23,267 nucleotides of DNA from a virus. The stretch is taken from positions 1 to 23,267 of the IMG/VR virus record IMGVR_UViG_3300048105_000010. One strand, written 5' to 3'. Both the position numbers and the translations under genes were made by a program. The notes beneath the pieces were generated by a model, which saw only the letters and a list, made by a program, of their open reading frames with translations, did not search any database and was not told the origin of the DNA. This document shows positions 1 to 18,497 of the stretch, piece after piece. How positions within the stretch are numbered: position 1 is the first letter of the stretch; each line of letters opens with the position of its first letter.

Positions 1-542
1 ACCTTAAAGAAGTAAGTAAAGTCTGAAGGTGAGTTGTCACCAACTGCAATGCTGAAATCGTTTGATGTATCATTCTTTCTGTCAGTAACAGTTAGTTTAA
101 TATCACCACCAGCAGTTCCAGTAAGAACCACATCTGGAACACCAAGAACAGCAGAGGCCTTGAGGATTTGATTAAACGTATCCTGTGTAAAGGTAAACTC
201 TACATCAACAGAGGGCATACTAATTTCAGTCTTTGGTGCAGTTACGATAGATGGGTCACTGAACATATAAGTCAGATTGCTTCCACCACCTTCTTCATTA
301 AGACGTACACTTTTCTCATCAAATGATAGTGTAGGGTCTTTGAATAGTGACAATGCAGACAAGAACTCGTTCAAGTCATAGATTGCAAATTCATTATTGA
401 AAGTATCTGGAACAGTTGCCTTTGCAACGATGTTTTTCATCGCAGACATTGTTCCAATCGCAGTACCATTTTTTACCATAAGATTCTGGTTAATGGTCGA
501 AAAGTTCTTTAGAACCTCTCGTGTATCATTACTAAGTTTCAT
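1..542 (-). CDS. 45: DNA polymerase sliding clamp gp45 (partial, C-terminus outside window)
   Basis: T4-type trimeric sliding clamp. It tethers the replicative polymerase to DNA and, in T4, also activates late transcription by contacting gp55. The 180 visible codons start MKLSNDTREVLKNFSTINQN, close to the T4 gp45 N-terminus. Further family landmarks follow: an 'AIYDLNEFL' strand near residue 52, then 'FSDPSIVTAPKT' around residues 92-103. T4 gp45 has about 228 residues, so roughly 45-50 are missing beyond the left edge. The ATG lies 3 bp after the TGA of the DUF3310 gene, and its AGGAG ribosome site lies inside the end of that gene, so the two are probably translationally coupled. Transcription most likely begins at the sigma-70 promoter at 884-912. 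The identity is by recognition of the family sequence and the neighbouring gp46/47/55 order. Confidence 0.93.
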   Translation of the reverse strand, partial: MKLSNDTREVLKNFSTINQNLMVKNGTAIGTMSAMKNIVAKATVPDTFNNEFAIYDLNEFLSALSLFKDPTLSFDEKSVRLNEEGGGSNLTYMFSDPSIVTAPKTEISMPSVDVEFTFTQDTFNQILKASAVLGVPDVVLTGTAGGDIKLTVTDRKNDTSNDFSIAVGDNSPSDFTYFFK

Positions 543-544
543 TT

Positions 545-856
545 TCAATTTTTCTCCTGAGTATCGTGATTATGTAGAGCCATTATACCATAATGGATCA
601 CCTTTAGCAAGTCATTTCTGTTCTTACCATCTTTTTTTCCATACCGTTGTGAATACTTTAAAATATTACCGATACAGAAACCTTCTCCATGGCCACTGTC
701 CATGATGAATTCTGTTGCTTGAAATTTGTTGTGGGAATAGTGAGCGTTATAGGTTTTATCTATATACTCTGTCATTTCTTTGAGGATTCTATCCTCTGAG
801 TATTTGTAGTCAATTCGCTTTTCAGCGACTACAGGTTCATCTTTTTTCTTAAACAT
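545..856 (-). CDS. DUF3310 family protein (T7 gp1.7-like domain), function unknown here
   Basis: A 103-residue protein with a Lys-rich N-terminus and a C-terminal DUF3310-like segment: 'GNILKYSQRYGKK' at residues 63-75 followed by 'NDLLKVIHY' at 81-89. This pattern is shared with many phage proteins, including the domain found in T7 gp1.7, a nucleotide kinase. Whether this copy acts on nucleotides is an inference. The ATG is preceded by a GAGG ribosome site about 8 nt away. It is the first gene after the terminator/promoter element at 884-922, and its stop is 3 bp from the gp45 start, so it is probably co-expressed with the clamp. No membrane segment or signal peptide is seen. Confidence 0.75.
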   Translation of the reverse strand: MFKKKDEPVVAEKRIDYKYSEDRILKEMTEYIDKTYNAHYSHNKFQATEFIMDSGHGEGFCIGNILKYSQRYGKKDGKNRNDLLKVIHYGIMALHNHDTQEKN

Positions 857-883
857 TACGAATCCTCAATTTCAATTAATCAT

Positions 884-912
884 ACTATAACATAAAAAGG
901 TGCCCCTGTCAA
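884..912 (-). promoter_or_regulatory. sigma-70-type promoter for DUF3310-gp45
   Basis: Read on the minus strand: TTGACA (plus 907-912), a 17-bp spacer, then TATAGT (plus 884-889). That is 6/6 and 5/6 matches to the consensus hexamers at ideal spacing. The expected start is near 877, giving a leader of about 20 nt before the ATG at 856. The -35 hexamer lies in the loop of the hsp20 terminator hairpin. No experimental support; called from hexamers and spacing alone. Confidence 0.7.
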
Positions 913-922
913 GAGGCACCTT
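897..922 (-). terminator. rho-independent terminator after hsp20
   Basis: Minus-strand transcript: stem AAGGTGCC/GGCACCTT (8 bp, plus 897-904 and 915-922) with a 10-nt loop, followed by a T run. The hairpin begins 8 nt after the hsp20 stop codon. It separates late hsp20 transcription from the DUF3310-gp45 unit and overlaps the promoter of that unit. Confidence 0.8.
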
Positions 923-930
923 CACTTTAC

Positions 931-1365
931 TTACTTGATTTTGATTGAACGTGGCTTCTTTTCATCTGGAATAATTCTTTCCATGTCGATTTTAAGAATA
1001 CCATCTTTCATATCAGCACCATTTACAACTACGTCATCTGACAGTGTAAATGCTTTTTTAAATCGTTTGTTTGAAATACCTTTGTATAAGTACTCCTTTT
1101 CATCATCACCCTCTGGTCGAGACTTAGATTCAATCTTGAGAACATTCTCTCTGAATTCAATCTCAATCTCATCCTTTGAGAAACCAGCAACGGCAATCTC
1201 AATGGTGAACTTATCATCATCGTGTTTTACGATGTTGTAAGGGGGGTAACTTGAAGGACTAGTTTGATTAGGATGATTCCCCATCAGACTGTCAAACATT
1301 CTATCGAAACCGATAGAGTAAGTATTGATCCTTGACGGATCTAGTGTAAAGGCTGTATTTACCAT
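931..1365 (-). CDS. hsp20: small heat-shock protein, Hsp20/IbpA type
   Basis: A 144-residue alpha-crystallin-domain chaperone, an ATP-independent holdase that keeps unfolding proteins soluble. The domain spans about residues 43-133, with 'IEIAVAGFSKDEIEIEF' as early strands and the conserved 'ADMKDGILKI' near 117-126. The C-terminal I-x-I oligomerisation motif is 'IKI' at 141-143. The N-terminal arm 'STYSIGFDRMFDSL'-like region resembles bacterial IbpA. The start has an AAAGGAG site upstream. An exact late promoter TATAAATA lies at 1428-1435 and a strong terminator follows, so this is a single-gene late transcript. Hsp20 genes are a regular part of marine T4-like phage genomes. Its client is not known; folding of virion proteins or host stress tolerance are both plausible. 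Confidence 0.92.
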   Translation of the reverse strand: MVNTAFTLDPSRINTYSIGFDRMFDSLMGNHPNQTSPSSYPPYNIVKHDDDKFTIEIAVAGFSKDEIEIEFRENVLKIESKSRPEGDDEKEYLYKGISNKRFKKAFTLSDDVVVNGADMKDGILKIDMERIIPDEKKPRSIKIK

Positions 1366-1427
1366 ATTTAATCTCCTTTATTAAGCAAGATACAGTGTAA
1401 TACCCATATAATATGGCGTATCACATT

Positions 1428-1435
1428 TATTTATA
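1428..1435 (-). promoter_or_regulatory. T4-type late promoter for hsp20
   Basis: Exact TATAAATA on the minus strand. Using T4 geometry (last A at -6) the start is about 1422, giving a leader of about 57 nt before the ATG at 1365. A 13-bp odd palindrome (CCATATAATATGG, 1404-1416) lies in the leader region. Confidence 0.75.
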
Positions 1436-1437
1436 AT

Positions 1438-1534
1438 GGTAGTTTTTTGGGCGGAAACTACCAAAACCGTGATTTGCGTCACAGAGTAAGCATATTATGT
1501 GACGTACAGGGCGACTTACGAACAGCACCCTGTA
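1438..1534 (-). other. structured intergenic element: three consecutive inverted repeats
   Basis: The 182 bp between DUF932 and hsp20 holds three inverted repeats. H1 pairs 1505-1511 with 1528-1534 (TACAGGG/CCCTGTA, 16-nt loop). H2 pairs 1477-1483 with 1498-1504 (CGTCACA/TGTGACG, 14-nt loop) and abuts H1 with no gap. H3 pairs 1438-1445 with 1455-1462 (GGTAGTTT/AAACTACC, 9-nt loop), directly next to the late promoter. The H1 and H2 loops carry complementary pentamers (CTTAC at 1515-1519, GTAAG at 1486-1490), so a kissing interaction is possible. None is followed by a T run, so these are not classical terminators. It may be a stable 3' end for the DUF932 mRNA, a small RNA, or a DNA-level protein site. 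Confidence 0.5.
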
Positions 1535-1547
1535 TTATATATAAGAC

Positions 1548-2507
1548 TTATGCAGCCTCAGCGTACTCTAGAGCTTTATCTAGGGCATTTAGTTTAACCT
1601 TACGGTTACGTCCATACCATGCAGACTGCAAACGTGAGTCACCTTCACGACCCTGTAAGTGGTCAGTCATGTATGTTACAGAGTTAAATGCCTGCCACCA
1701 AGAACCTTCGGCAAAGTTTGCACCTGGCTGTGTCTGCAAGTTTTCCATTGCAGTCTTGGCGTTACGAGAAGTATAAGGCATAACACCATCTACCTTCTCT
1801 TTTGCTGGAGCGCCAAATACTTCATTGAAGTACTGAATGACATTATCGCCAGTAGCAGGTTTACTACCAAGGAACTGAGCCATTGACTTATATTGCTCCA
1901 TTTTCTCACGAGCGATACCCATCTGCTCTTTCACCTCAGCGGCATCGAATGCCTTACGGTGATTTACAGTAACCATCTTGTCAGTGTCTTGTGACAGAGA
2001 CAATGTGAGAGTGTTGTTACATACGACACGAATTGGTGTCATACGAATGTTTAGTGCCTTACCAAACTGGTGAGGGTTAGTGAACAGGAAGTAGTTCTCT
2101 GTCAAATCACCATTGAACAATTCAAATGATTCTTTGGTTTTTGCAAGAGCCCACACAAGTTGTCCATTTTTCAATGAACCAGCAGTGTGCATCTCCATGT
2201 CACCAGCCATTACATAGTCGTGGAAAAACTCAAATGCTTCTGAGTTCTGTACTGGATTCCAACCAGTACCAACAACATCAAGTACTGAGTTGTCTGATGT
2301 ACGAACAAGTGCTTCCTTGTTCTTCACGATTGCACCTTGTGGGGTAACAAGTTTTTCTTTAGTTACTTCCCAATCAAGTCCAGCAACTTTTTGGAACTGG
2401 CCAGGTGTGAGGTCAGCCTCTACCTTAGTACCAAGTCCATGCCAAGGAACGTCACCAACGTATGCCATTTGTGCGTTTCCGTTTACGATTTCAAGTTCAT
2501 GTGCCAT
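1548..2507 (-). CDS. DUF932 protein (phage/plasmid-like family TIGR03299)
   Basis: A 319-residue protein of the DUF932 family, found in phages and plasmids and without an agreed function. The hallmark N-terminus is present: 'MAHELEIVNGNAQMAYVGDVPWHGLG' pattern at residues 1-26, with the 'PWHGLG' motif at 21-26. The central part has 'NSEAFEFFHDYV', and the 'TPIRVVCNNTL' segment near residue 160 is a family landmark. The length is usual for the family. The ATG at 2507 has an AGGAG site about 9 nt upstream and a sigma-70-type promoter at 2552-2580. It is a single-gene unit between the methyltransferase and the structured 3' element, suggesting early expression. No enzyme motif is visible. Confidence 0.85.
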   Translation of the reverse strand: MAHELEIVNGNAQMAYVGDVPWHGLGTKVEADLTPGQFQKVAGLDWEVTKEKLVTPQGAIVKNKEALVRTSDNSVLDVVGTGWNPVQNSEAFEFFHDYVMAGDMEMHTAGSLKNGQLVWALAKTKESFELFNGDLTENYFLFTNPHQFGKALNIRMTPIRVVCNNTLTLSLSQDTDKMVTVNHRKAFDAAEVKEQMGIAREKMEQYKSMAQFLGSKPATGDNVIQYFNEVFGAPAKEKVDGVMPYTSRNAKTAMENLQTQPGANFAEGSWWQAFNSVTYMTDHLQGREGDSRLQSAWYGRNRKVKLNALDKALEYAEAA

Positions 2508-2551
2508 AATATTTGTCTCCTAACGACTTTGTTTTCTCACTTTACTTATAC

Positions 2552-2580
2552 AGTATATACGTTCTTATAACAAAAGTCAA
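2552..2580 (-). promoter_or_regulatory. sigma-70-type promoter for the DUF932 gene
   Basis: Minus strand: TTGACT (plus 2575-2580), 17-bp spacer, TATACT (plus 2552-2557), each 5/6 to consensus. The start would be near 2545 and the leader about 38 nt. No TATAAATA is present here, which suggests host-polymerase early or middle expression. Confidence 0.65.
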
Positions 2581-2600
2581 GATGTTTTTATAACTTTTTT

Positions 2601-3125
2601 TCAGTTTCTTCCAAAAAATTGTGTTGGCCATTCACCATCTGGTTTATCGAACAGATACCAACAACAATTGTCCTTACCTGTACTCTTACTACCTTCTATC
2701 CACTTCACACGGCCGATGCTGACTACCTTCCTCAACCTAGGCATGAATTCTATACTTTGTTTCGTATGCATCCAATCTGCATCAAAGAGTAACCAAGTTG
2801 GTAACTGGTCAGATAGATTTACGATAAGGGGGTGTAGTATCTTACGATTCCAAGGTGGGTTTGTTATGCAAACATCACATCCTACAATCTTATCAGTCAT
2901 TGCATCACCATCACCAACAAAGTCTGCCATAGGTTCTATGTCAGTCATCCAGTACCCTAACAGTTTTGTCAGTTGTTCTATGTGTCGAATCAGTCTACCG
3001 TCACCGGCACAAGGTTCTGCAAACAATCCTGTCTTTGGTAAGTGGGGAACAAGAGGCCTTACTGCCTCTATAGGAGTAGGGTAGAAATCTCTTTCCACCC
3101 TCTCAAAATCACTTCTTTTTCCCAT
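2601..3125 (-). CDS. small class I SAM-dependent methyltransferase, DNA adenine/NPPW type
   Basis: A 174-residue protein with the two key signatures of amino-methyltransferases. Motif I is 'EPCAGDGRL' at residues 37-45, the SAM-binding loop. Motif IV is 'NPPW' at 89-92, the catalytic motif of N6-adenine and N4-cytosine enzymes. 'DFYPTP' at 13-18 is a typical N-terminal motif of phage adenine methyltransferases, and D62 fits the ribose-binding acidic position. No separate target-recognition domain is evident, so its specificity is unknown. I chose the ATG at 3125 over one at 3140 because GAGGAA lies 7 nt upstream. It overlaps the preceding DUF1599-like gene by 17 bp and is last in the gp55-47-46 operon. 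DNA is the likely substrate by motif IV, but a small molecule or protein cannot be excluded. Confidence 0.8.
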   Translation of the reverse strand: MGKRSDFERVERDFYPTPIEAVRPLVPHLPKTGLFAEPCAGDGRLIRHIEQLTKLLGYWMTDIEPMADFVGDGDAMTDKIVGCDVCITNPPWNRKILHPLIVNLSDQLPTWLLFDADWMHTKQSIEFMPRLRKVVSIGRVKWIEGSKSTGKDNCCWYLFDKPDGEWPTQFFGRN

Positions 3126-3420
3126 CCTTATATTCCTCATAAAGAATTAATGCTATCAAAGCATAATTGGCCATGTCAATAAGTGTATCCTTGATACTCT
3201 CATCTTTAACCTCAAGTAGTTCTTTCTTTGCAAAACCCATAATACGGCTGAACTTGTCTCCTAGTCGAACACAACATCCCTTCCATGCTGGGATACCACC
3301 CATCTCACAGGTTCTAAAGTTTGCAAACACATCTTCCACACTTGCATAGTCGTGACGCTTTGCATCGTGTGTCTTTTTCATTTCTTCTAGTAATTCTTTA
3401 AACCGTTCACTTTGATCCAT
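3109..3420 (-). CDS. DUF1599-like (nucleotide-modification-associated / MazG-like) protein
   Basis: A 103-residue all-helical protein. The pattern 'KRHDYA' (21-26), 'VRLGDKFSRI' (51-60) and 'DESIKDTLIDMANYA' (73-87) resembles the DUF1599 family, which is described as associated with modified-nucleotide systems. The acidic/DxxD-like helix recalls MazG-type nucleotide pyrophosphohydrolases. Activity is not established. Its ATG overlaps the gp46 stop by one base (TAATG), and its end overlaps the methyltransferase start, so it is locked into the recombination operon. The pairing with a methyltransferase suggests nucleotide or DNA modification, but this is inference. Confidence 0.65.
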   Translation of the reverse strand: MDQSERFKELLEEMKKTHDAKRHDYASVEDVFANFRTCEMGGIPAWKGCCVRLGDKFSRIMGFAKKELLEVKDESIKDTLIDMANYALIALILYEEYKDGKKK

Positions 3421-5126
3421 TATACCATCCTACTAAAGTTTTTCTCTTTCTTAAACTGAATAATGTTTCTAAACTTATCAAACAACATATCCTGTTTGTG
3501 TGATATGACAAATACATTCTGTTGGTCAAATGTATTCAAAATCTTTAGAAAATCATCAGTACCAGTGTTATCCAAAGATGAATCAAATATCTCATCTAGT
3601 ATTAGTAGATTCGTATTCGTAGAGTTTTTCATCTTTGCAATGGCTCTCCATGTAAATAGAAGTGCCAAATCAATTCGCATCTTCTCACCTTCTGAGAATG
3701 ATGCATAAGAGAACTCATCTCTGAAACGTGACTTGATTGTTTCATTGAAGTTCTCATCAATATTAAAGTTAACAAAGAAATCCATAGATGATAGATATGT
3801 GTTTACCAACTTATTCATAATTGGTAGATACTGTTTTACAATCTTTGTCTTGATGCCACTGTCTTGTAAAAGATTACGAGCAACATCAATGTAAAACTTA
3901 TCTTCATTCAACTTAGTCTTTTGTTCTTCAATCGACTTTATCTGTCCTTTTAGTTCTGCAAGTTTTATCTTATCTTCTTCTGACACAGAACCGTTTTGAT
4001 ATGCCTCAATATCTTTTTCTAGTTTTGCATTGAACTTTTCCAACTCTGCAATAGAGGAAAGTATTTTGGCCCTCTCAACATCATTCTTACGAATAGTTTC
4101 TAAGTCTACTAAGATTGATTGGAGTCTGTCTTGTTCTTCTGATTCCATTCTTTGTAAATCTGCGATACCGTTTTCGATGTCTCCGATTTTTGTGGTTCTG
4201 GATTCAATCTGCGTCTGCTTAGTTGATTCTGTAATCGGCTGTTCGCAAGACGGGCATTCATCGTTGTCCTTGAAAAATTTGATTTGACGGTCATGCTCAG
4301 ATTTCCTGTTCTGAAGGGCTGCTTCTGTTTGAGTTAGTTTCTTTAGTTTCTGTTCTAGTTTTGCTTTCTCTTCTGCATCATAAGATAGATTTTCGTTATC
4401 AATCTCTAATGCTTTCACATCATCTCTTCTGAAGTCAATAGTGCTTTTATTATCCCATAACTTCTGTTGGTTCTCTGCAATAATAGCAGACTTATTGTTT
4501 ACAACTTCTTTAATAAATTTTTCTTGTAATGTAACCTTTTCTTTTGTTAAGTCAAAGTTATACTGAACATCACGAATATCCTCTGCAAGAGACTTATTCT
4601 TGTTCTTGAGAAGAAAGTTCATCAGTGAGAAAATCTTGATATCTAGGATATCCTCGACAACCTCACGGCGAGCCTTTGTAGACAACTGCATGAAAGGAAC
4701 AAAGGTAGATGAACCAAGAATAACAACCTGTGTGAAAGAACGATAGTTCAATCCTAAGATTTGTTGTTCTAGATGTTTCTGATAATCCCTTGCATTTGCA
4801 TCTTGGTTTATCATAGTACCGCCAATCCAAACTTCAAACTTGTTTGGTTTGATACCACGAACAACCTTCACATCTTTATTGTTCACATTAAACTCTACTT
4901 CAACAATAGTGCCATTACCATTAACAGAGTTCACAAGTTGTGATTTTGAGATATTACGAAAAGGCTTATTGAACAGGACAAAACAAAGCGCATCCAGAAT
5001 AGTAGATTTACCGGCTCCGTTTTCCCCAATAATTAACGTAGTTGGAGCATAGTCCAACTGTATTTCAGTGAATTGATTTCCAGTGGATAGAAAGTTCTTC
5101 CACCGTACTTTATTAAATGTAATCAA
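3420..5126 (-). CDS. 46: recombination endonuclease subunit gp46 (Rad50/SbcC-like ATPase)
   Basis: A 568-residue SMC-type ATPase that works with gp47 to process DNA ends for recombination-dependent replication and, in T4, host DNA degradation. Walker A 'GENGAGKST' is at residues 34-42 and a long coiled coil spans about 170-415. The zinc-hook motif 'CPSC' is at 291-294. The ABC signature 'FSEGEKMR' is at 477-484, Walker B 'LLILDE' at 507-512, and the H-loop 'ISHK' at 541-544. The length is close to T4 gp46 (about 560). The start codon is TTG, overlapping the gp47 stop as TTGA; the family N-terminus 'VRWKNFLSTGN' follows directly, so no ATG alternative fits. All catalytic motifs look intact. 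Confidence 0.96.
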   Translation of the reverse strand: MITFNKVRWKNFLSTGNQFTEIQLDYAPTTLIIGENGAGKSTILDALCFVLFNKPFRNISKSQLVNSVNGNGTIVEVEFNVNNKDVKVVRGIKPNKFEVWIGGTMINQDANARDYQKHLEQQILGLNYRSFTQVVILGSSTFVPFMQLSTKARREVVEDILDIKIFSLMNFLLKNKNKSLAEDIRDVQYNFDLTKEKVTLQEKFIKEVVNNKSAIIAENQQKLWDNKSTIDFRRDDVKALEIDNENLSYDAEEKAKLEQKLKKLTQTEAALQNRKSEHDRQIKFFKDNDECPSCEQPITESTKQTQIESRTTKIGDIENGIADLQRMESEEQDRLQSILVDLETIRKNDVERAKILSSIAELEKFNAKLEKDIEAYQNGSVSEEDKIKLAELKGQIKSIEEQKTKLNEDKFYIDVARNLLQDSGIKTKIVKQYLPIMNKLVNTYLSSMDFFVNFNIDENFNETIKSRFRDEFSYASFSEGEKMRIDLALLFTWRAIAKMKNSTNTNLLILDEIFDSSLDNTGTDDFLKILNTFDQQNVFVISHKQDMLFDKFRNIIQFKKEKNFSRMV

Positions 5127-6199
5127 AGTTCCAAGTCGCTCGCTTCTACATAAAGTGACTTCATCATACTAGTCAATCTTTTCTTATTCAAATCTACATC
5201 AAGTTCATCAATGTAGCGCTCTAACAGAGTCATAGTGTCCTCTGCATTCTCAATGATTGCATCATCAACATTCGATGCATCTAAATCACTGAAGTCCTCT
5301 ACAATCTTTACCTCATGGGCTCCAGATTCACCAAGGACTTTATCAATGAATCTATCGAATTGATACAAGTCTTTTTTATTTACTACTACTATTTTAACAA
5401 ACTTATCTCTTAATGTCAAGATGTCAAAGTCATTATAATTTGTAGTAGTATCATCATAATATACTTTTTCAAATATAGTGTAAGGATTGACGATACGTTC
5501 TAATTCTCTGGTGTTGGTGTCAAAGATATGGAAACCTTTCTGACAACCATCATCACTCCAAGTCATCTGGTATGTGTTACCAAGATAATATACATGGCCA
5601 TCATCAGACTTCTTATGGAAGTGTCCAGAGAACACAGTATCGAACTTATTTAGAAACTTCTTATCGTAACCGTTTTCTGAGAAGTGTCCTTTATGCATTT
5701 CAAATCCATTGATTTCAAAATGCCCCATACAAACTTGTGCATAGGTTGATTGAATACTTCTCATAGAACGCTCGTAGTTATCAGAACAAATCCACGGCAT
5801 AAAGTGAATCCCTGTTCCATCAAACTCTTGGGTACATGGGCCATCATAACATTCAATACCAGAATATTTTTCTTCTCCTGGCCCACCTAGTAGTTCGTAG
5901 AGAGAGTTAATCTCATTGGTATTCTTATAATAAGTATCATGGTTTCCTGCCATAACGTGCATCTTGATTCCTCTAGATACAATAGGAAGGATAAAACGCT
6001 CACGCAAATCTTTTGCAATTTTATAGGATACAAACTTACGTCTGTCCATCAAATCACCAAGATGAATAATCGTATCAATCTTATGTTCGTCAAGATAAGG
6101 GAAGAAAGTATTCTCCCAAAACTTGTAGAAGTATTCGTTGAATGCTAGATTATCATTGCGAGCGCCAAAGTGGGTATCAGTTATCAGCGCTATCTTCAT
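5123..6199 (-). CDS. 47: recombination endonuclease subunit gp47 (Mre11/SbcD-like nuclease)
   Basis: A 358-residue calcineurin-like phosphoesterase, the nuclease partner of gp46. The metal-binding motifs appear in order: D8 and H10 in 'DTHFG', D49 in 'HLGDLMDRR', N86-H87 in 'GNHD', H160 in 'MGHFE', and H193/H195 in 'SGHFH'. It is slightly longer than T4 gp47 (about 339). The ATG at 6199 overlaps the end of gp55 by 23 bp, and the 3' end shares 4 bp with the gp46 start. The close overlap fits fixed-ratio production of the nuclease complex. Confidence 0.96.
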   Translation of the reverse strand: MKIALITDTHFGARNDNLAFNEYFYKFWENTFFPYLDEHKIDTIIHLGDLMDRRKFVSYKIAKDLRERFILPIVSRGIKMHVMAGNHDTYYKNTNEINSLYELLGGPGEEKYSGIECYDGPCTQEFDGTGIHFMPWICSDNYERSMRSIQSTYAQVCMGHFEINGFEMHKGHFSENGYDKKFLNKFDTVFSGHFHKKSDDGHVYYLGNTYQMTWSDDGCQKGFHIFDTNTRELERIVNPYTIFEKVYYDDTTTNYNDFDILTLRDKFVKIVVVNKKDLYQFDRFIDKVLGESGAHEVKIVEDFSDLDASNVDDAIIENAEDTMTLLERYIDELDVDLNKKRLTSMMKSLYVEASDLEL

Positions 6200-6722
6200 C
6201 GTAAAATTTCTCTAGTCCTTTAGGTTCAGTTTTCTTTTTCTTCTTAGGTTTATAAACATCTTCGGCTGGTAGGAAGTTCTTCTGTAGATACTCCACAAAC
6301 TGTGCCTGTTCCATATCCTCACCAACTGCAAGAATATCAACATTCATATTCTCAATCACTTTGTGACGAATGTGTTGTTGTTTCTTTTCTTTTTGAATTC
6401 TACGAATGAATGCGTAATAGATAATCTGTGTAAAATACGCAAATGGATTGTTTGATTTCTCTGGATTGAAGTTGCCACAGTATTGTAGACAATTCTCAAT
6501 ACCGTCTGAAATCATTTCATCTCTATAGGTATAATTAATAAAATTTGGTCTGTAAGAAAGATGGTTTGCAATTTTTAAGAAGCATTCACCAATATAGTTA
6601 GTCACTGGTGGTTGTGGTTCACCTAGTTCCTCAGCTTCTTTGCAACGATCTTTCCATTCTTTCATTGCTTCTAGGAATTGTGCATTGTTTACATAATGCA
6701 CTCCTGTTTTTCTTTTAGCCAT
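6177..6722 (-). CDS. 55: late-transcription sigma factor gp55
   Basis: A 181-residue relative of T4 gp55, the small sigma-like factor that directs host RNA polymerase to TATAAATA late promoters. Shared landmarks are 'YVNN' near residue 10, 'RDEMISDGIENCLQ' at 67-80, 'NPFAYFTQI' at 92-100 and 'FIRRIQKEKK' at 105-114. This is the sigma region-2-like core. A Lys-rich stretch (158-164) leads to an acidic tail with 'GLEKFYDED' at 169-177. In T4 the gp55 C-terminal tail binds the gp45 clamp, and the L170/F173/Y174 pattern could do the same. The start has a GGAG site upstream and a near-perfect sigma-70 promoter at 6767-6795. Exact TATAAATA words elsewhere in the window support the identity. Confidence 0.93.
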   Translation of the reverse strand: MAKRKTGVHYVNNAQFLEAMKEWKDRCKEAEELGEPQPPVTNYIGECFLKIANHLSYRPNFINYTYRDEMISDGIENCLQYCGNFNPEKSNNPFAYFTQIIYYAFIRRIQKEKKQQHIRHKVIENMNVDILAVGEDMEQAQFVEYLQKNFLPAEDVYKPKKKKKTEPKGLEKFYDEDSADN

Positions 6723-6766
6723 AATAACTCCACATAATTTATCGCTTTTATGCGATTAGTAGATAC

Positions 6767-6795
6767 ATAATACTATATCTTGATTCAATTGTCAA
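6767..6795 (-). promoter_or_regulatory. near-consensus sigma-70 promoter for the gp55-47-46 operon
   Basis: Minus strand: TTGACA (plus 6790-6795), 17-bp spacer, TATTAT (plus 6767-6772), 6/6 and 5/6 to consensus. The start is predicted near 6760. The leader of about 38 nt contains a small hairpin (ATCGC/GCGAT, 6741-6745 and 6752-6756) just before the gp55 ribosome site. This would let unmodified host polymerase make the late sigma factor. Confidence 0.75.
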
Positions 6796-6831
6796 TAGAT
6801 AAATTAATATTCATTTAATTTCAAAAAGTTA

Positions 6832-6860
6832 TTGACAAGCCCTTGACAACTTGGTATAAC
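6832..6860 (+). promoter_or_regulatory. sigma-70-like promoter firing antisense to the Sm-like gene
   Basis: Plus strand: TTGACA (6832-6837), 17-bp spacer, TATAAC (6855-6860), 6/6 and 4/6. A second TTGACA lies at 6843-6848. It stands back-to-back with the gp55 promoter, but no plus-strand gene follows. The start would be near 6867, and the transcript would run antisense into the 3' end of the gene at 6890-7282. No clear terminator for it was found. Confidence 0.45.
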
Positions 6861-6889
6861 AGCTATGCTGGGTTTGAGAATAGATAGAT

Positions 6890-7282
6890 CTAATGTATAG
6901 TACTAGAGTCAGGTTCACCAAACTCTTCCCACATTTCTTCATTTTCAATATCATTTAACTCTTGATTGGATGGGGCTAGAACTTCATCTTCTTCCCACTT
7001 TGCTTTCTTAACACAGTACTCATAAAATTTTACTAAGCCTAGAGAGGCTTCTGTTAATACCAGAACTTGAGATTTTGCAACATCAAAGGTATCTGTTTCT
7101 GCAAAATGAATCCACCTTTGTAGAGATAGTGCTTCTTCAAGTCCATGCTTAGTAGCCTTTGGATAAGAATTTAATTTCATTGGTTGCACAAGACTCATAT
7201 AATCATTCTCTGGTTGGTGAACCACCTTGCATATGATTTCCTCACCACTTGATAATTTTAATATTTTTGTATCGTGAATCAT
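6890..7282 (-). CDS. Sm/LSm-like protein of marine T4-like phages (putative)
   Basis: A 130-residue protein. Residues 4-40 read like the first strands of an Sm fold: 'KILKLSSGEEIICKV' resembles the Sm1 '..L.nGe.i.g.v' pattern, followed by 'DYMSLVQPMKL'. The C-terminal third is strongly acidic (about 96-125). A structure of an Sm-like protein of putative cyanophage origin has been reported from metagenomic data; homology with this one is my inference from pattern and gene position. Hfq-like RNA binding would be the obvious role, but no RNA-binding residues can be verified. The ATG overlaps the uvsW stop (ATGA), so it belongs to the uvsY-uvsW unit. Confidence 0.55.
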   Translation of the reverse strand: MIHDTKILKLSSGEEIICKVVHQPENDYMSLVQPMKLNSYPKATKHGLEEALSLQRWIHFAETDTFDVAKSQVLVLTEASLGLVKFYEYCVKKAKWEEDEVLAPSNQELNDIENEEMWEEFGEPDSSTIH

Positions 7283-8751
7283 TTCATTTTTATCCTTTTG
7301 ATTTCATAATCAAACTGCTCTTCATTGTATATATTTATTCTTTCTAAAAAGTGATTCAATGTAAAATTACGCTTTGACTTGTGGGTAAAGTCATCACTTA
7401 TGTCGAATAGGGTAGCGGTATCTTTAGTATCTCCAACTCGCAAGCCTCTTCCGATTGACTGCAAAACTCTGATACGACTTTTGGAAGGACTAGAGAACAC
7501 GATGTTGTGTAGATTACGAATATTAATGCCAGTAGAAAAAGTACCATAGGATGCAACAATAATCGCATTATTTTCTTTCTCAGTAATCGCACGAATATCT
7601 TCCCTTGTTTGGGTATCTGTTCCACCATGCACATAGAAAACTTTTCTATCTAAGTCTTTCATCATATCATATAGAACAGAACCGTGTTTCTCTACAAATT
7701 GAAATAGTACTAATGTATTACCTTTTATTGTCTTTGTCAACCCCAAAATAAATTTATTTCTTTCTGTGTGACGTACAATATAATCTACCTCATCTTGATA
7801 GTTCATATCTTTCACTAACTTGCATTCATTTTCTGGGTAAGATAAAACTAATGCTTTAATTGAAAAATCTGCAAGAGTTTTCTTGTCAATTAGTTCTTTT
7901 GTGGTAATAACTTTATTTAGACTGCCGAACAGGCCTTCTAATACAAGTCGATGGGTTTGCATACCGTCTAGTGTACCTGTCAATCCAAAACGATACTTAC
8001 ATAAATGTAGTTTAGTTAGAATAGATGTTAAGGATTTTGATTTAAATAAATGGGCCTCGTCACCAATTACACAACCGAATTGTTCAAAGTAACTCTTGGG
8101 CATTTTATACAAAGATTGCCATGTGGATATTACAAGTTTCTTTTCTACTTTTCTATCATACCCACTATATACTTTTTGCATATATGCTTCTAACCATCCA
8201 TAATCAATAAAGTCAGAATGCATTTGTTCAACCAAAGATGTTGTGGGAACAAGTATTAGTATCTTATCTTGTTCTGTCTCTGACAACAACATATCATAAT
8301 ATCGTATCAGAATGTAGATTATTAAAGATTTGCCCGAAGCAGTAGGGCTAAGGAGCAAAGCACGATGTTTTCTAATTGCGTACTCCACTGCAGCCACTTG
8401 ATAGTCACGAGGTTTAATTCCTCTTCCATTGGATCGAAGTCTAAGGCTGCGTATGAATCCATCCAATATCTGTCTGTCGATTTGTTTTTCATCTTGTAAG
8501 TCCTCACTTATAGTATAATCTTCTTCAAAATCATCTAGATATTTTGTTAGGTAGGGTAATAGTCCAATATACAATTCTCCATTGGCTGGAGAAAAAAGTC
8601 TTATCTTTCCATCCCAAATCCTATTTCTATATGCAGGCATAAATCTAGCGCCTGGCACTTCAAAGGTAAAGTAATCTGATAACATCCTTGCAACAGATGG
8701 TTCAGTCTCTACCCTTAGAAAAACCTCATTTTTCTTAGAGATTGATGTCAC
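7279..8751 (-). CDS. uvsW: recombination DNA-RNA helicase UvsW
   Basis: A 490-residue superfamily 2 helicase similar in size to T4 UvsW (about 503), which unwinds branched DNA and R-loops and shifts replication from origin-dependent to recombination-dependent. Motif I 'SPTASGKS' is at residues 135-142, motif II 'DEAH' at 231-234, motif III 'TGT' at 258-260 and motif VI 'QSIGRGLR' at 431-438. The N-terminal 'RNRIWDGKIRLF' segment (42-53) matches the UvsW N-terminal domain. The start is GTG, sharing one base with the uvsY stop (TAGTG), which implies translational coupling and probably low yield. It continues into the Sm-like gene by a 4-bp overlap. Confidence 0.95.
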   Translation of the reverse strand: MTSISKKNEVFLRVETEPSVARMLSDYFTFEVPGARFMPAYRNRIWDGKIRLFSPANGELYIGLLPYLTKYLDDFEEDYTISEDLQDEKQIDRQILDGFIRSLRLRSNGRGIKPRDYQVAAVEYAIRKHRALLLSPTASGKSLIIYILIRYYDMLLSETEQDKILILVPTTSLVEQMHSDFIDYGWLEAYMQKVYSGYDRKVEKKLVISTWQSLYKMPKSYFEQFGCVIGDEAHLFKSKSLTSILTKLHLCKYRFGLTGTLDGMQTHRLVLEGLFGSLNKVITTKELIDKKTLADFSIKALVLSYPENECKLVKDMNYQDEVDYIVRHTERNKFILGLTKTIKGNTLVLFQFVEKHGSVLYDMMKDLDRKVFYVHGGTDTQTREDIRAITEKENNAIIVASYGTFSTGINIRNLHNIVFSSPSKSRIRVLQSIGRGLRVGDTKDTATLFDISDDFTHKSKRNFTLNHFLERINIYNEEQFDYEIKRIKMK

Positions 8752-9179
8752 TAAATCGCACCATCTACAAACTTACGCCAAGCAATTGCGTTCTTAATAT
8801 TCCACTGTCTATCAGAAACATTCTTCATAATAGATTCACAAGTAGATACACACATCTCATAATATTCTATGAGTTGTTTCATCTCTACCATTTCTTTATC
8901 CGAATCTAGGTAGATATGCAAATCCGCTTTTAATATTTTATGATCGAATGGATTATCACGATACACTTCAGGGTCAGATTTACCTGAATAATATTCCCAC
9001 TTTTTTCTTTTAAGAATATTATATTCACCCCTCTTCATAATGAGAAGTTGTTTGTAGTGATTTAGGTGATTAAGATATTTTTGGTGAAGGGATGCGTTTC
9101 TTAAAGACTCATCTGCGAGTTCTAAGTCATCCTGTTTCATGTCAATCTCAGCCATTTGCTGAAGTTCATCTAGTTTCAT
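8751..9179 (-). CDS. uvsY: recombination mediator UvsY
   Basis: A 142-residue helical protein matching T4 UvsY (137 aa) in length and layout. UvsY loads the UvsX recombinase on gp32-coated single-stranded DNA. Visible parallels are the start 'MKLDELQQMAEID', 'YLNHLNHYKQLL' at 34-45, and 'KKWEYYSGKSDPEVY' around 59-73, whose 'YYSG' is characteristic. The gene immediately precedes uvsW as in T4. Its leader is preceded by a sigma-70-like promoter (9227-9255) and an exact late promoter (9292-9299), so expression in both phases is possible. The ATG follows a GGAG site. Confidence 0.9.
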   Translation of the reverse strand: MKLDELQQMAEIDMKQDDLELADESLRNASLHQKYLNHLNHYKQLLIMKRGEYNILKRKKWEYYSGKSDPEVYRDNPFDHKILKADLHIYLDSDKEMVEMKQLIEYYEMCVSTCESIMKNVSDRQWNIKNAIAWRKFVDGAI

Positions 9180-9214
9180 TATATCTCCATAGTATAAAGT
9201 GAGCAGAGTGGGTT

Positions 9215-9228
9215 GTAACTTGCGTTAC
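9215..9228 (-). promoter_or_regulatory. hairpin with GNRA tetraloop in the uvsY leader
   Basis: Minus-strand RNA: GTAAC-GCAA-GTTAC, a 5-bp stem closed by a GNRA-type GCAA tetraloop, 36 nt before the uvsY ATG. It would be whole only in transcripts from the late promoter at 9292-9299, because the nearer sigma-70 start lies inside it. It could be a translational control site; no binding protein is identified. Confidence 0.35.
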
Positions 9229-9255
9229 TATATTGTCTCTACGAAAGAGCCTCAA
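9227..9255 (-). promoter_or_regulatory. possible sigma-70 promoter for uvsY-uvsW
   Basis: Minus strand: TTGAGG (plus 9250-9255), 17-bp spacer, TATAGT (plus 9227-9232), 4/6 and 5/6 matches. The expected start is near 9220, about 41 nt before the uvsY ATG. Weaker than the gp55, DUF932 and gp45-unit promoters. Confidence 0.4.
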
Positions 9256-9291
9256 AAAAGGGTGTCCAAGTCAACCATTTTCTGCTCGGTA

Positions 9292-9299
9292 TATTTATA
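9292..9299 (-). promoter_or_regulatory. T4-type late promoter upstream of uvsY
   Basis: Exact TATAAATA on the minus strand, overlapping the stop codon of the gp3-like gene (9295-9297). By T4 geometry transcription starts near 9286, giving a 107-nt leader for uvsY that includes the GNRA hairpin. Confidence 0.65.
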
Positions 9300-9876
9300 T
9301 GCTTTCAAATTCGTACAAGTCATATTTCAGTGTAACAGTTGCAGTCAACTGCTCTGTATCTGTAACTTGTGTATTATAGTCAATACCAGTAAGGGTTGTT
9401 GGGAAACAGTTAGAAAAGTTTACTCTTACCTTTGGATTGTTTTTGTTGGTTAGAATAGTAAGTGTTGCATCACTCATCAATACTGATGGTTTACCCACAC
9501 TCTTTCTTTGTGTGTTTATTGAAGGTTCGCCAGGATTTGTTTGTGCCTCTGATGCGATAGCCGAAGTGAATTGTTCGTTATTTTTAGGAAAACCAATACC
9601 AATCATCCAATCGTGGATTTCACGATAGTTAGACAAATCTTCATTTACTAAAAACGTAATACTCAAATCTTCAAAGTCCATAGTGTCACCCATGAACGCA
9701 ATAGATTTAAAACGTGTATTAATAGATGCATCACCTGTAAAACTTATGCCAGGGATATTTACGTTTGTTGTAAAATACTCTACGTTAGGTATCTTCAACA
9801 ATGTAAACCTAAACTGCGTAGGACTTGCAAAGTCCATGTTAGAAGGTTGTCTTTGTAACGGATTTATTTTTGCCAT
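9295..9876 (-). CDS. 3: tail-tube-fold protein, probably tail completion and sheath stabiliser gp3
   Basis: A 193-residue protein of the gp19/gp3/gp54 tail-tube fold group. In-window comparison with gp19 shows the same layout: 'QFRFTLLKIP' then a '(I)PG' turn near residue 42, 'GDTMDFEDLSITFLVNEDL' at 63-81, and 'HDWMIGIG' at 89-96. In marine T4-like genomes the gene between gp23 and uvsY is gp3, the terminator of the tail tube that stabilises the contracted-sheath end. That position, plus the 'FLVNED...WM' segment, favours gp3 over a second gp19. It has its own late promoter at 9895-9902 and an AAGGAAGA ribosome site 13 nt or less from the mRNA start. A baseplate tube initiator (gp54-like) is the main alternative. 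Confidence 0.72.
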   Translation of the reverse strand: MAKINPLQRQPSNMDFASPTQFRFTLLKIPNVEYFTTNVNIPGISFTGDASINTRFKSIAFMGDTMDFEDLSITFLVNEDLSNYREIHDWMIGIGFPKNNEQFTSAIASEAQTNPGEPSINTQRKSVGKPSVLMSDATLTILTNKNNPKVRVNFSNCFPTTLTGIDYNTQVTDTEQLTATVTLKYDLYEFESI

Positions 9877-9894
9877 AGTGTTCTTCCTTTATAC

Positions 9895-9902
9895 TATTTA
9901 TA
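9895..9902 (-). promoter_or_regulatory. T4-type late promoter for gp3
   Basis: Exact TATAAATA on the minus strand. The start is expected near 9889, giving a very short leader of about 13 nt before the ATG at 9876. Its upstream edge is the T run of the gp23 terminator. Confidence 0.75.
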
Positions 9903-9903
9903 A

Positions 9904-9933
9904 AGAAAAAAGGGGAGCATTTCTGCTCCCCTT
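9904..9933 (-). terminator. rho-independent terminator of the major capsid gene
   Basis: Minus-strand RNA: 10-bp stem AAGGGGAGCA/TGCTCCCCTT (plus 9910-9919 and 9924-9933) with a 4-nt loop, then TTTTTTCTTT. It lies 27 nt after the gp23 stop. A smaller inverted repeat (GTTGTT/AACAAC, 9942-9955) sits between stop and terminator. It is the strongest terminator in the window, placed after its most highly expressed gene. Confidence 0.9.
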
Positions 9934-9960
9934 GAGTTTCGGTTGTTGAAACAACTCTTA

Positions 9961-11280
9961 TTACATGATGTTTGTAACTTGTACTCTTCTGTAATATACG
10001 TTGTCGTTGGCAGTAAGTGCGCCAGAGCGTACTGTTGCACCACCAGCAAATGGGTTTGCAGTAAGACCGTAACGAGTCTTGAAACCAATTTTAGGCTGGA
10101 AGTTGTTCTCACCCACTGCACGAACCATCTGAAGTGGAACGTATGGGCAGTAGAACAGACCTGCATCGTAAGGTGAAGTACCCTTATAACCTACAGTGTA
10201 GTACTGTTTTGCAGCACCGTTTGCAGCATATGGGTCGATAAACACTTTGTAACGTCCGTTAAGAACACCAGCGAAAGTGTTACCAGCATCGTCAACATTC
10301 AAGTTGTTGTTAAGAGCAGGTGTGTAATCAAGTACACCAGCCATTTGCAGTGCAGAAGCAACATCTGAAGAACAGATAATCATGTTACCTTTTCCTCTGC
10401 GTGTCTCTTGTGCAATTGCGTTGGCATCACGCTCAACTTGGAACATAAGTCCTTTAAACTTCTCAACACTCCAACGGCCGTTTGAATCAACGTCCATGTC
10501 GAAGATACCAGAAGTTGCAGTATCAGTCTGTGCGCCTGGCTTAGCAGTTACATAGATTGTACGGACAACTTCACGGTTGATTTCAGCAAGAATTTCAGAT
10601 GACAAGATGTTTGCCAATTCTGTTTCTGCATCCAAACCATGAATTGCTTTAAGGTCTTGTGCGAGTTCCATTGTATACTCGGCTTTAAGAGCTCTTGACT
10701 TTGCTTCAACGGTGTTTTTCTCGATTGAGAATGCCATTTCAGCGAATGCATTGTTTGACGCATCACCCAATGCTTCAGCAGTTGCAGTAGTCATACCACC
10801 ATCAGCAGTATATGCGCCTGGCGAACCATCGTTAAGAACTGCTGGGTTAGTTTCACCGTTAGATGAAGTACCGGCAGAGCCTGGGATGTTAGTGTTTGCT
10901 GCGGCACCAGAGAATGCTGATTCTGGTTCTGCGTACTGGTTCTCAGTACCGTTCTGAGCCTTGTAACGTGATCTCATTGCAAAGATAAGTCCTGTTGGGC
11001 CAGTCATTGGCTGAACACCAGCAATATCATATGCGATAAGGTTAGGCATCGCCCGTCTTACGAGGGAGATGAGGATCGGATCCCAATTGTCAACAGCTGA
11101 ACCTGTTGCGTTTGTTGGGGCTGCTTCGCCGAGGAAACCTCTGTCCTCATTGAGAGCCTTTTCTTGGTTTTCTAGGATTACAGTGGTGACAGCCTTACGA
11201 TAAGAGTCATTGATCTCTGGAAGATCGTTGTGCTCTAGTACTGGTGCCCACTTTTCCTGTAGATGTTCTGTTTTGAACAT
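9961..11280 (-). CDS. 23: major capsid protein gp23
   Basis: A 439-residue HK97-fold capsid protein of the T4 gp23 family (521 residues in T4). It has the typical start 'MFKTEHLQEKWAPVL', then 'DNWDPILISLVRRAMPNLIAYDI' around 64-86, 'GVQPMTGPTGLIFAMRSRY' at 88-106, and 'EKNTVEAKSRALKAEYT' in the middle. The C-terminus carries 'KIGFKTRYGLTANPF'. The prohead protease consensus [LI]-x-E is met at 'FLGE' ending at residue 52 before 'AAP', so the mature protein probably begins at A53. It has a late promoter (11312-11319), a 26-nt leader with an AAGGAGAAA site, and a strong terminator downstream. A Gly/Ser/Ala/Asn-rich segment about residues 120-165 is probably a surface-exposed variable region. 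Confidence 0.97.
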   Translation of the reverse strand: MFKTEHLQEKWAPVLEHNDLPEINDSYRKAVTTVILENQEKALNEDRGFLGEAAPTNATGSAVDNWDPILISLVRRAMPNLIAYDIAGVQPMTGPTGLIFAMRSRYKAQNGTENQYAEPESAFSGAAANTNIPGSAGTSSNGETNPAVLNDGSPGAYTADGGMTTATAEALGDASNNAFAEMAFSIEKNTVEAKSRALKAEYTMELAQDLKAIHGLDAETELANILSSEILAEINREVVRTIYVTAKPGAQTDTATSGIFDMDVDSNGRWSVEKFKGLMFQVERDANAIAQETRRGKGNMIICSSDVASALQMAGVLDYTPALNNNLNVDDAGNTFAGVLNGRYKVFIDPYAANGAAKQYYTVGYKGTSPYDAGLFYCPYVPLQMVRAVGENNFQPKIGFKTRYGLTANPFAGGATVRSGALTANDNVYYRRVQVTNIM

Positions 11281-18197: not shown

Positions 18198-18497
18198 ATG
18201 TCAGAACACTATCAGAAATACAAAGAAACCATTAAAAAGGTTTCTAAACGTAACTACAGGGCTCGCAAGATATGGGTAAATGAATATCTTGGGAACAAAA
18301 CCTGTGGTTACTGTGGGGAATCTGAAACTGCCTGTCTCCAATTTTATCCTCACGAGAGGAAAATACGTTCTCTTACCAAAAGAAAAGGTTTAAATGAACA
18401 CTCTAGAACTGAAGTAAATGATTACATAAGTAAATCTAAAGTTGTTTGTTCAAATTGCTTTCTAAAATTAGAGAATGATATTATTGATATTATGTAG
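18198..18497 (+). CDS. HNH-like zinc-binding protein, probably catalytically degenerate
   Basis: A 99-residue basic protein and the only plus-strand gene. Two CxxC pairs (C36/C39 in 'CGYC', C84/C87 in 'CSNC') flank a central 'LQFYPHERK' at 47-55 and a helix 'RTEVNDYISKSKVV' (70-83). This is the layout of small zinc HNH endonucleases: 'CxxCG...L.F.H...K...Ei.K..v.CxNCH'. Here the catalytic histidine pair is altered (Y50-P51 before H52) and the His normally after the second CxxC is F88. Zinc binding looks intact but cleavage is doubtful. It converges on gp17, ending 14 bp from its stop, and diverges from gp18. No ribosome site precedes the ATG. It may be a remnant homing-type nuclease or a repurposed DNA/RNA-binding protein. 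Confidence 0.75.
   Translation: MSEHYQKYKETIKKVSKRNYRARKIWVNEYLGNKTCGYCGESETACLQFYPHERKIRSLTKRKGLNEHSRTEVNDYISKSKVVCSNCFLKLENDIIDIM

Follow-up and report, generated by a model that had tools for sequence, protein, structure and literature searches.

Genes and signals at the hsp20 junction

The window, by which we mean the whole 23,267-nucleotide stretch taken from an IMG/VR virus record, comes from a marine T4-like phage and is a fragment of 23 kb. Within the phage collection, megablast matched it only to the Melnitz phages of OM43 methylotrophs, with about 81% identity over 1 kb. The minus strand carries, in order, genes for a gp55-like sigma factor, gp47, gp46, two small proteins, DUF932, Hsp20, DUF3310 and gp45 (Table 1), the gp names having been assigned partly by gene order in Melnitz.

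Table 1. Features at the hsp20/DUF3310-gp45 junction, and the related RNA candidates in other phages
Feature	Position	Strand	Basis
Late promoter box of T4 type, TATAAATA, 63 nt before the hsp20 ATG	1428..1435	-	motif count
hsp20 (Hsp20/alpha-crystallin), gene predicted to be ended by the terminator	931..1365	-	Pfam PF00011, 1.9e-18
Hairpin of the predicted intrinsic terminator, stem of 12 bp, TGAC loop	896..923	-	hairpin scan, RNA fold, covariation in relatives
-35 hexamer TTGACA (hairpin loop plus closing T-A pair)	907..912	-	promoter scan; invariant in 48/48 class-L junctions
Terminator T run, within the promoter spacer	894..898	-	sequence
Extended -10: TG (892-891), T, TATAGT (889-884)	884..892	-	scan; TGN in 46/48, spacer 17 in 48/48 class-L junctions
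Predicted transcription start of the DUF3310-gp45 unit, leader of about 21 nt	877	-	inferred from -10 spacing
Shine-Dalgarno-like GAGGA	863..867	-	sequence
DUF3310 gene, first of the putative restarted unit	545..856	-	Pfam PF11753, 1.3e-10
5' part of the gp45 sliding clamp gene, which continues beyond the window	1..542	-	reading frame; DUF3310-gp45 order annotated in Melnitz and HTVC008M
Candidate structured RNA in relatives	Melnitz 137758-137875; HTVC008M 91764-91869; Mosig 9908-9786 (weak)		covariance model

On the minus strand between 935 and 850, the hsp20 stop codon is followed by GAAGGTGCCTCT-TGAC-AGGGGCACCTTT (923-896), TT and ATG T TATAGT. Positions 923-912 pair with 907-896 in a stem of 12 bp, G-U pairs included. 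The stem has six GC pairs and leads into TTTTT, the first three T of which also pair at the stem foot, giving the G+C-rich hairpin and T run of an intrinsic terminator. RNA 3' ends would be expected at about 893-889. The T run is short, with five T and then ATG, and the hsp20 stop codon lies only about 8 nt ahead of the stem, so that a ribosome stopping there could make termination less efficient. The same DNA carries TTGACA, a 17-bp spacer and TG-T-TATAGT, the arrangement of an extended -10 sigma-70 promoter (TTGACA, 16-18 bp, TGN TATAAT), and in a consensus scan it matched at 11 of 12 positions.

The initial annotation had proposed that a terminator and a near-consensus sigma-70 promoter occupy the same DNA, with the T run inside the 17-bp spacer, and the scans agree with it on both points. 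The hairpin that it described is present, but not at 897-922, its stem having the limits given above. It was also right to put TTGACA at the loop, except that the loop proper is TGAC (911-908), with the outer T and A of the hexamer forming the closing pair. The extended -10 was absent from that annotation.

The RNA of 930-884 has a predicted folding energy of -19.1 kcal/mol (z -4.14), which none of 200 shuffles equalled, and its hairpin is the longest terminator-like hairpin that our scan found within the first 12 kb. One composite of such geometry was observed in the window, against 0.017 per dinucleotide shuffle; a chance match is ruled out at that rate. A role for the hairpin as leader of the DUF3310 mRNA, whether as a riboswitch or in translation control, is likewise ruled out, because the expected start is downstream of it. 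A search of positions 1-10000 of the window gave no Rfam matches at E<=1.

Conservation of the junction in relatives

IMG/VR loci were recruited with the DUF3310 and Hsp20 proteins and not with the motif, and phage genomes were added. Examination of the DNA 3' of each hsp20 covered 155 loci with 78 distinct junctions. The set also includes a few contigs found by motif pattern, nearly all of which had already been recruited by protein. A hairpin encloses the -35 in 48 of the 78 junctions (class L). Within this class TTGACA is exact and the spacer is 17 in every junction, and TGN precedes the -10 in 46. The stems, in contrast to this fixed TTGACA, fall into 20 different arm pairs. Their loops range from 4 to 17 nt, and they include such unrelated kinds as GCGCC-TC, GGGGGGAA, AGAGGGGA, GGGGGATT, AACCTCTT and GCGTTCCA. 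When arms were swapped between junctions, pairing over the apical 8 positions fell from 7.9/8 with a junction's own arms to 3.5/8. Among the 23 sequences of class A, which are close relatives, 96.4% of cells are paired and five pairs have changed on both sides (19 cells), counts that come from sequences related to each other; these pairing and covariation scores were reached by 0 of 500 shuffles, and no slid register came close. The exact class-A core pattern matched 20 IMG/VR contigs, once in each. By our own reading, a further five or six junctions, which our script placed in the class "other", show a -35 that either overlaps the stem in part or sits at a nested one. Stem pairing and TTGACA are therefore conserved together across related phages, the point that the initial annotation had suggested checking in an alignment of these junctions.

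The promoter is tied to what lies downstream. DUF3310 or gp45 occurs within 1.1 kb of 62 promoter-bearing junctions and is absent from one, the context of two others being not known; promoter-bearing here takes in class L, L-like, spacer type and weak spacer type, with borderline cases grouped by us. Only one junction without a clear promoter adjoins DUF3310 or gp45, while 12 do not, and 12 of these 13 keep a plain hairpin. Homologues with the stem and without the hexamers, which the initial annotation had named as a refuting case, are thus nearly confined to junctions that lack a downstream DUF3310-gp45 unit. The gene directly downstream varies among relatives, being either DUF3310 at once or one extra ORF first.

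Both the co-conservation and the restriction of the promoter to the DUF3310-gp45 context indicate that stem and hexamers are selected together. The predicted terminator and promoter functions are well supported by this apparent selection on both. The TTGACA could be nothing more than a loop and the promoter match an accident, since other matches of 10-11/12 occur inside genes of the window. We give this almost no weight, because TTGACA, the spacer and (in 46/48) TGN stay invariant while the loops vary, and because the plain hairpins at junctions not followed by gp45 have other loops.

Known composite cassettes and other geometries

Arbiol (2010) and Comeau (2014) reportedly deal with PeSL motifs of T4-like myoviruses. 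Composite promoter-terminators of these phages had thus already been named, as PeSLs (promoter-early stem-loops), according to work cited in PMC4503421, and the novelty had been overstated. Like a PeSL, the window element is a small intergenic cassette in which a sigma-70-like early promoter is fused with a stem-loop terminator. It differs in that TTGACA is the loop and not a stem arm, leaving the stem sequence free to change, and in that a single copy is present in the 23-kb fragment, fixed at the hsp20/DUF3310-gp45 junction, where PeSLs occur in several copies. KVP40 has five copies of AAAAGGG-TTGACT-ACGGTCAGCCCTTTCTTG-TATTAT, in nearly the same register as the window element, with a hairpin over the -35 and a T run in the spacer, but with TTGAC as a stem arm. 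The 12 cassettes of RB49 have their stem-loop between the -35 and the -10. The T4-like early promoters read by host sigma-70 resemble the element in having TTGACA-17-TATAGT and TGN before a replication gene unit, and differ from it in that the element uses its upstream half as a terminator too.

In a strict sense a PeSL would serve mainly as a recombination cassette, providing homology for the shuffling of gene modules. The near-identical copies in KVP40 (five) and RB49 (twelve) fit such a role, and at our junction the downstream gene differs among relatives, as expected at a module edge. We nevertheless regard it as quite improbable here. The window has one copy, the class-A core occurs once per contig in 20 IMG/VR contigs, Mosig has one copy and Melnitz none, and from one site to another the stem sequences show no relationship and so offer little homology.

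Melnitz is the nearest cultured relative and yet has a different arrangement at the hsp20 junction, where it and its relatives have TTGACATTACCCTAGAAATAGGGTATTAT, with the stem-loop inside the spacer. This spacer stem-loop, with a poor T run and RB49-like, was seen at Melnitz 138367-138395 and in IMG/VR loci L131, L044, L046, L043, L030 and L033; with spacer type and loop type both occurring at the hsp20 junction, the geometry of the cassette has switched during evolution at a single site.

We see an even chance that the overlap reflects compaction only, terminator and promoter sharing DNA to save space with neither activity affecting the other. The gap to the next start is 62-90 nt in most class-L loci, and the spacer geometry that Melnitz and others have at this junction suggests that exact overlap is interchangeable. 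On the other hand, the overlap is unchanged in those class-L loci where DUF3310 is about 400 nt away and an extra ORF lies between, and spacing is 17 in 48 of 48, although the promoter alone would demand 17 too.

The cultured Pelagibacter phage Mosig has a composite between hsp20 and gp45, its Hsp20 sharing 39% identity. The loop type is also found at other junctions in P-SSM4 (3) and S-SM2 (2 strict, 4 loose), for example between gp32 and the next gene and between the phoA region and hli, and in the IMG/VR contigs L055, L058, L063 and L065, with promoters of 11-12/12. In these four cyanophage-like contigs the composites (L058 2302, L063 299, L055 551, L065 3751) lie upstream of an 87-aa ORF (MSAKDKILNFLSKDGPYNTLT...). 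Strict composites of the window geometry were found in none of T4, HTVC008M, syn9 and C48C1, and the element is therefore not a general T4-like feature. The architecture thus recurs as a design in this phage family, and its general kind is the known PeSL. New are the -35 in the loop, the single copy and the fixed junction, which make it a compact variant of the known T4-like cassette.

Late promoter motif and candidate structured RNA upstream of hsp20

The motif TATAAATA occurs seven times in the window, with 1.51 expected, and once before hsp20. The further boxes are at 9292, 9895, 11312, 12595, 18136 (minus) and 18185 (plus), and most lie just 5' of gene starts, those of structural genes and of the only ORF on the plus strand (18198-18497), which is where T4-type late promoters would be expected. 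A second strong terminator (AAGGGGAGCAGAAATGCTCCCCTT TTTT), at 9933-9910 on the minus strand, stands just before the box at 9902-9895, so that a terminator is closely followed by a late promoter motif there.

Among class-L relatives with upstream sequence the late box is kept in 30 of 46; the other 16 have no TATAAAT there, and the element therefore does not depend on the box. T4 late transcription requires gp45, gp55 and gp33 (PMC2988020), so that a stop-and-restart between a late hsp20 and an early clamp unit would make sense. A late-to-early reading of the hsp20/DUF3310-gp45 junction is thus plausible; going by the motif, hsp20 would be late and the DUF3310-gp45 unit early. Papers on cyanophage transcriptomes held no usable data on the timing of hsp20 or gp45. 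The "early/late insulator" of the initial annotation is in keeping with the box before hsp20, as a motif, but does not extend to all class-L relatives.

An unannotated candidate structured RNA lies at 1545-1430 on the minus strand, between DUF932 and hsp20. It consists of a hairpin with an invariant UUCGUAAG loop, a second hairpin with CYUACUC and an H-type pseudoknot (CGG..GGUAGUUU..CCG..AAACUACC in the window) that ends a few nt before TATAAATA. Over 52 distinct sequences 94.5% of cells are paired and 10 pairs have changed on both sides, 0 of 500 shuffles being as good and slid registers reaching 40-50%. The candidate gave no Rfam match at E<=1. A covariance model, built with nested pairs only, matches Melnitz (1.7e-26), HTVC008M (5.9e-8) and, weakly, Mosig (4e-4). 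A different gene precedes the RNA in HTVC008M, and it therefore seems to go with hsp20. A conserved box before the RNA (window 1545-1530, minus) reads TATATAATA in relatives, CATAAATAG in HTVC008M (L150 765-775) and GATAAATAG in Mosig. As this is roughly where a late-type promoter for the RNA would be, the candidate may be both an hsp20 leader and a late RNA in its own right.

A proposed stop-and-restart element

The near confinement of the promoter to clamp-unit junctions points to an element between hsp20 and the clamp unit. We propose, with a probability of roughly 0.82, that it is a composite stop-and-restart element at which hsp20 transcripts end and the DUF3310-gp45 unit starts on the same DNA. 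Transcripts through hsp20, from the late-type promoter or from the preceding early genes, would form the hairpin and stop at the U run, and termination there would keep them out of DUF3310-gp45. As duplex DNA, the same stretch would be read by host sigma-70 polymerase as a strong extended -10/-35 promoter, and the DUF3310-gp45 mRNA, starting at about 877, would not contain the hairpin. With the -35 in the loop, TTGACA would escape the need to pair that binds the stem. With the 3' arm and the T run inside the 17-bp spacer, both signals would fit in about 40 bp. From its geometry, a terminating and an initiating polymerase presumably cannot share these 40 bp at once. The sequences themselves show the anatomy, the co-conservation, the covariation and the link with the downstream unit; from these we infer termination and initiation, their timing, and a purpose, that of uncoupling clamp supply from hsp20 transcription. 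Several points weigh against the proposal: the short T run and nearby hsp20 stop codon, the relatedness of the sequences behind the pair counts, the 16 of 46 relatives that lack the late box, and the different arrangement in Melnitz.

The host polymerase could instead stay on the DNA after releasing the hsp20 RNA, take up sigma-70 and restart on DUF3310-gp45, so that hsp20 transcription would feed clamp transcription. Retention of E. coli polymerase after termination, its one-dimensional diffusion and its reinitiation at nearby promoters have been shown in vitro, and reinitiation is expected to depend on the distance between terminator and promoter and to rise with sigma-70 (PMC6978380, PMC11347151). 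This distance is about 12-20 bp here, and T4-like phages use the host enzyme. Such recycling was not yet shown in vivo according to the same two papers, and the late polymerase carries gp55 and not sigma-70; we consider this course unlikely. Recycling termination resembles our case in having a terminator beside a promoter and the host polymerase, but was seen in vitro with separate terminator and promoter (PMC6978380, PMC11347151), whereas the two overlap in the element described here. It is very doubtful, further, that the polymerase terminating at hsp20 is passed, still on the DNA, to the promoter of the late-activating clamp; late activity would then feed back on clamp supply.

Significance

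As a stop-and-restart element, the junction would be a naturally optimised case in which 40 bp carry two transcription signals of opposite effect. It offers clear design rules, namely a -35 in the loop, a 17-bp spacer that holds the 3' arm and T run, and an extended -10, which many different stem sequences obey. For phages of this sort, promoter and terminator predictions in which each signal is handled on its own may miss such a composite; the Melnitz paper lists 31 early promoters and only 6 terminators (PMC9004378). The elements of the relatives are natural templates for asking whether a near-zero distance between terminator and promoter makes the polymerase restart.
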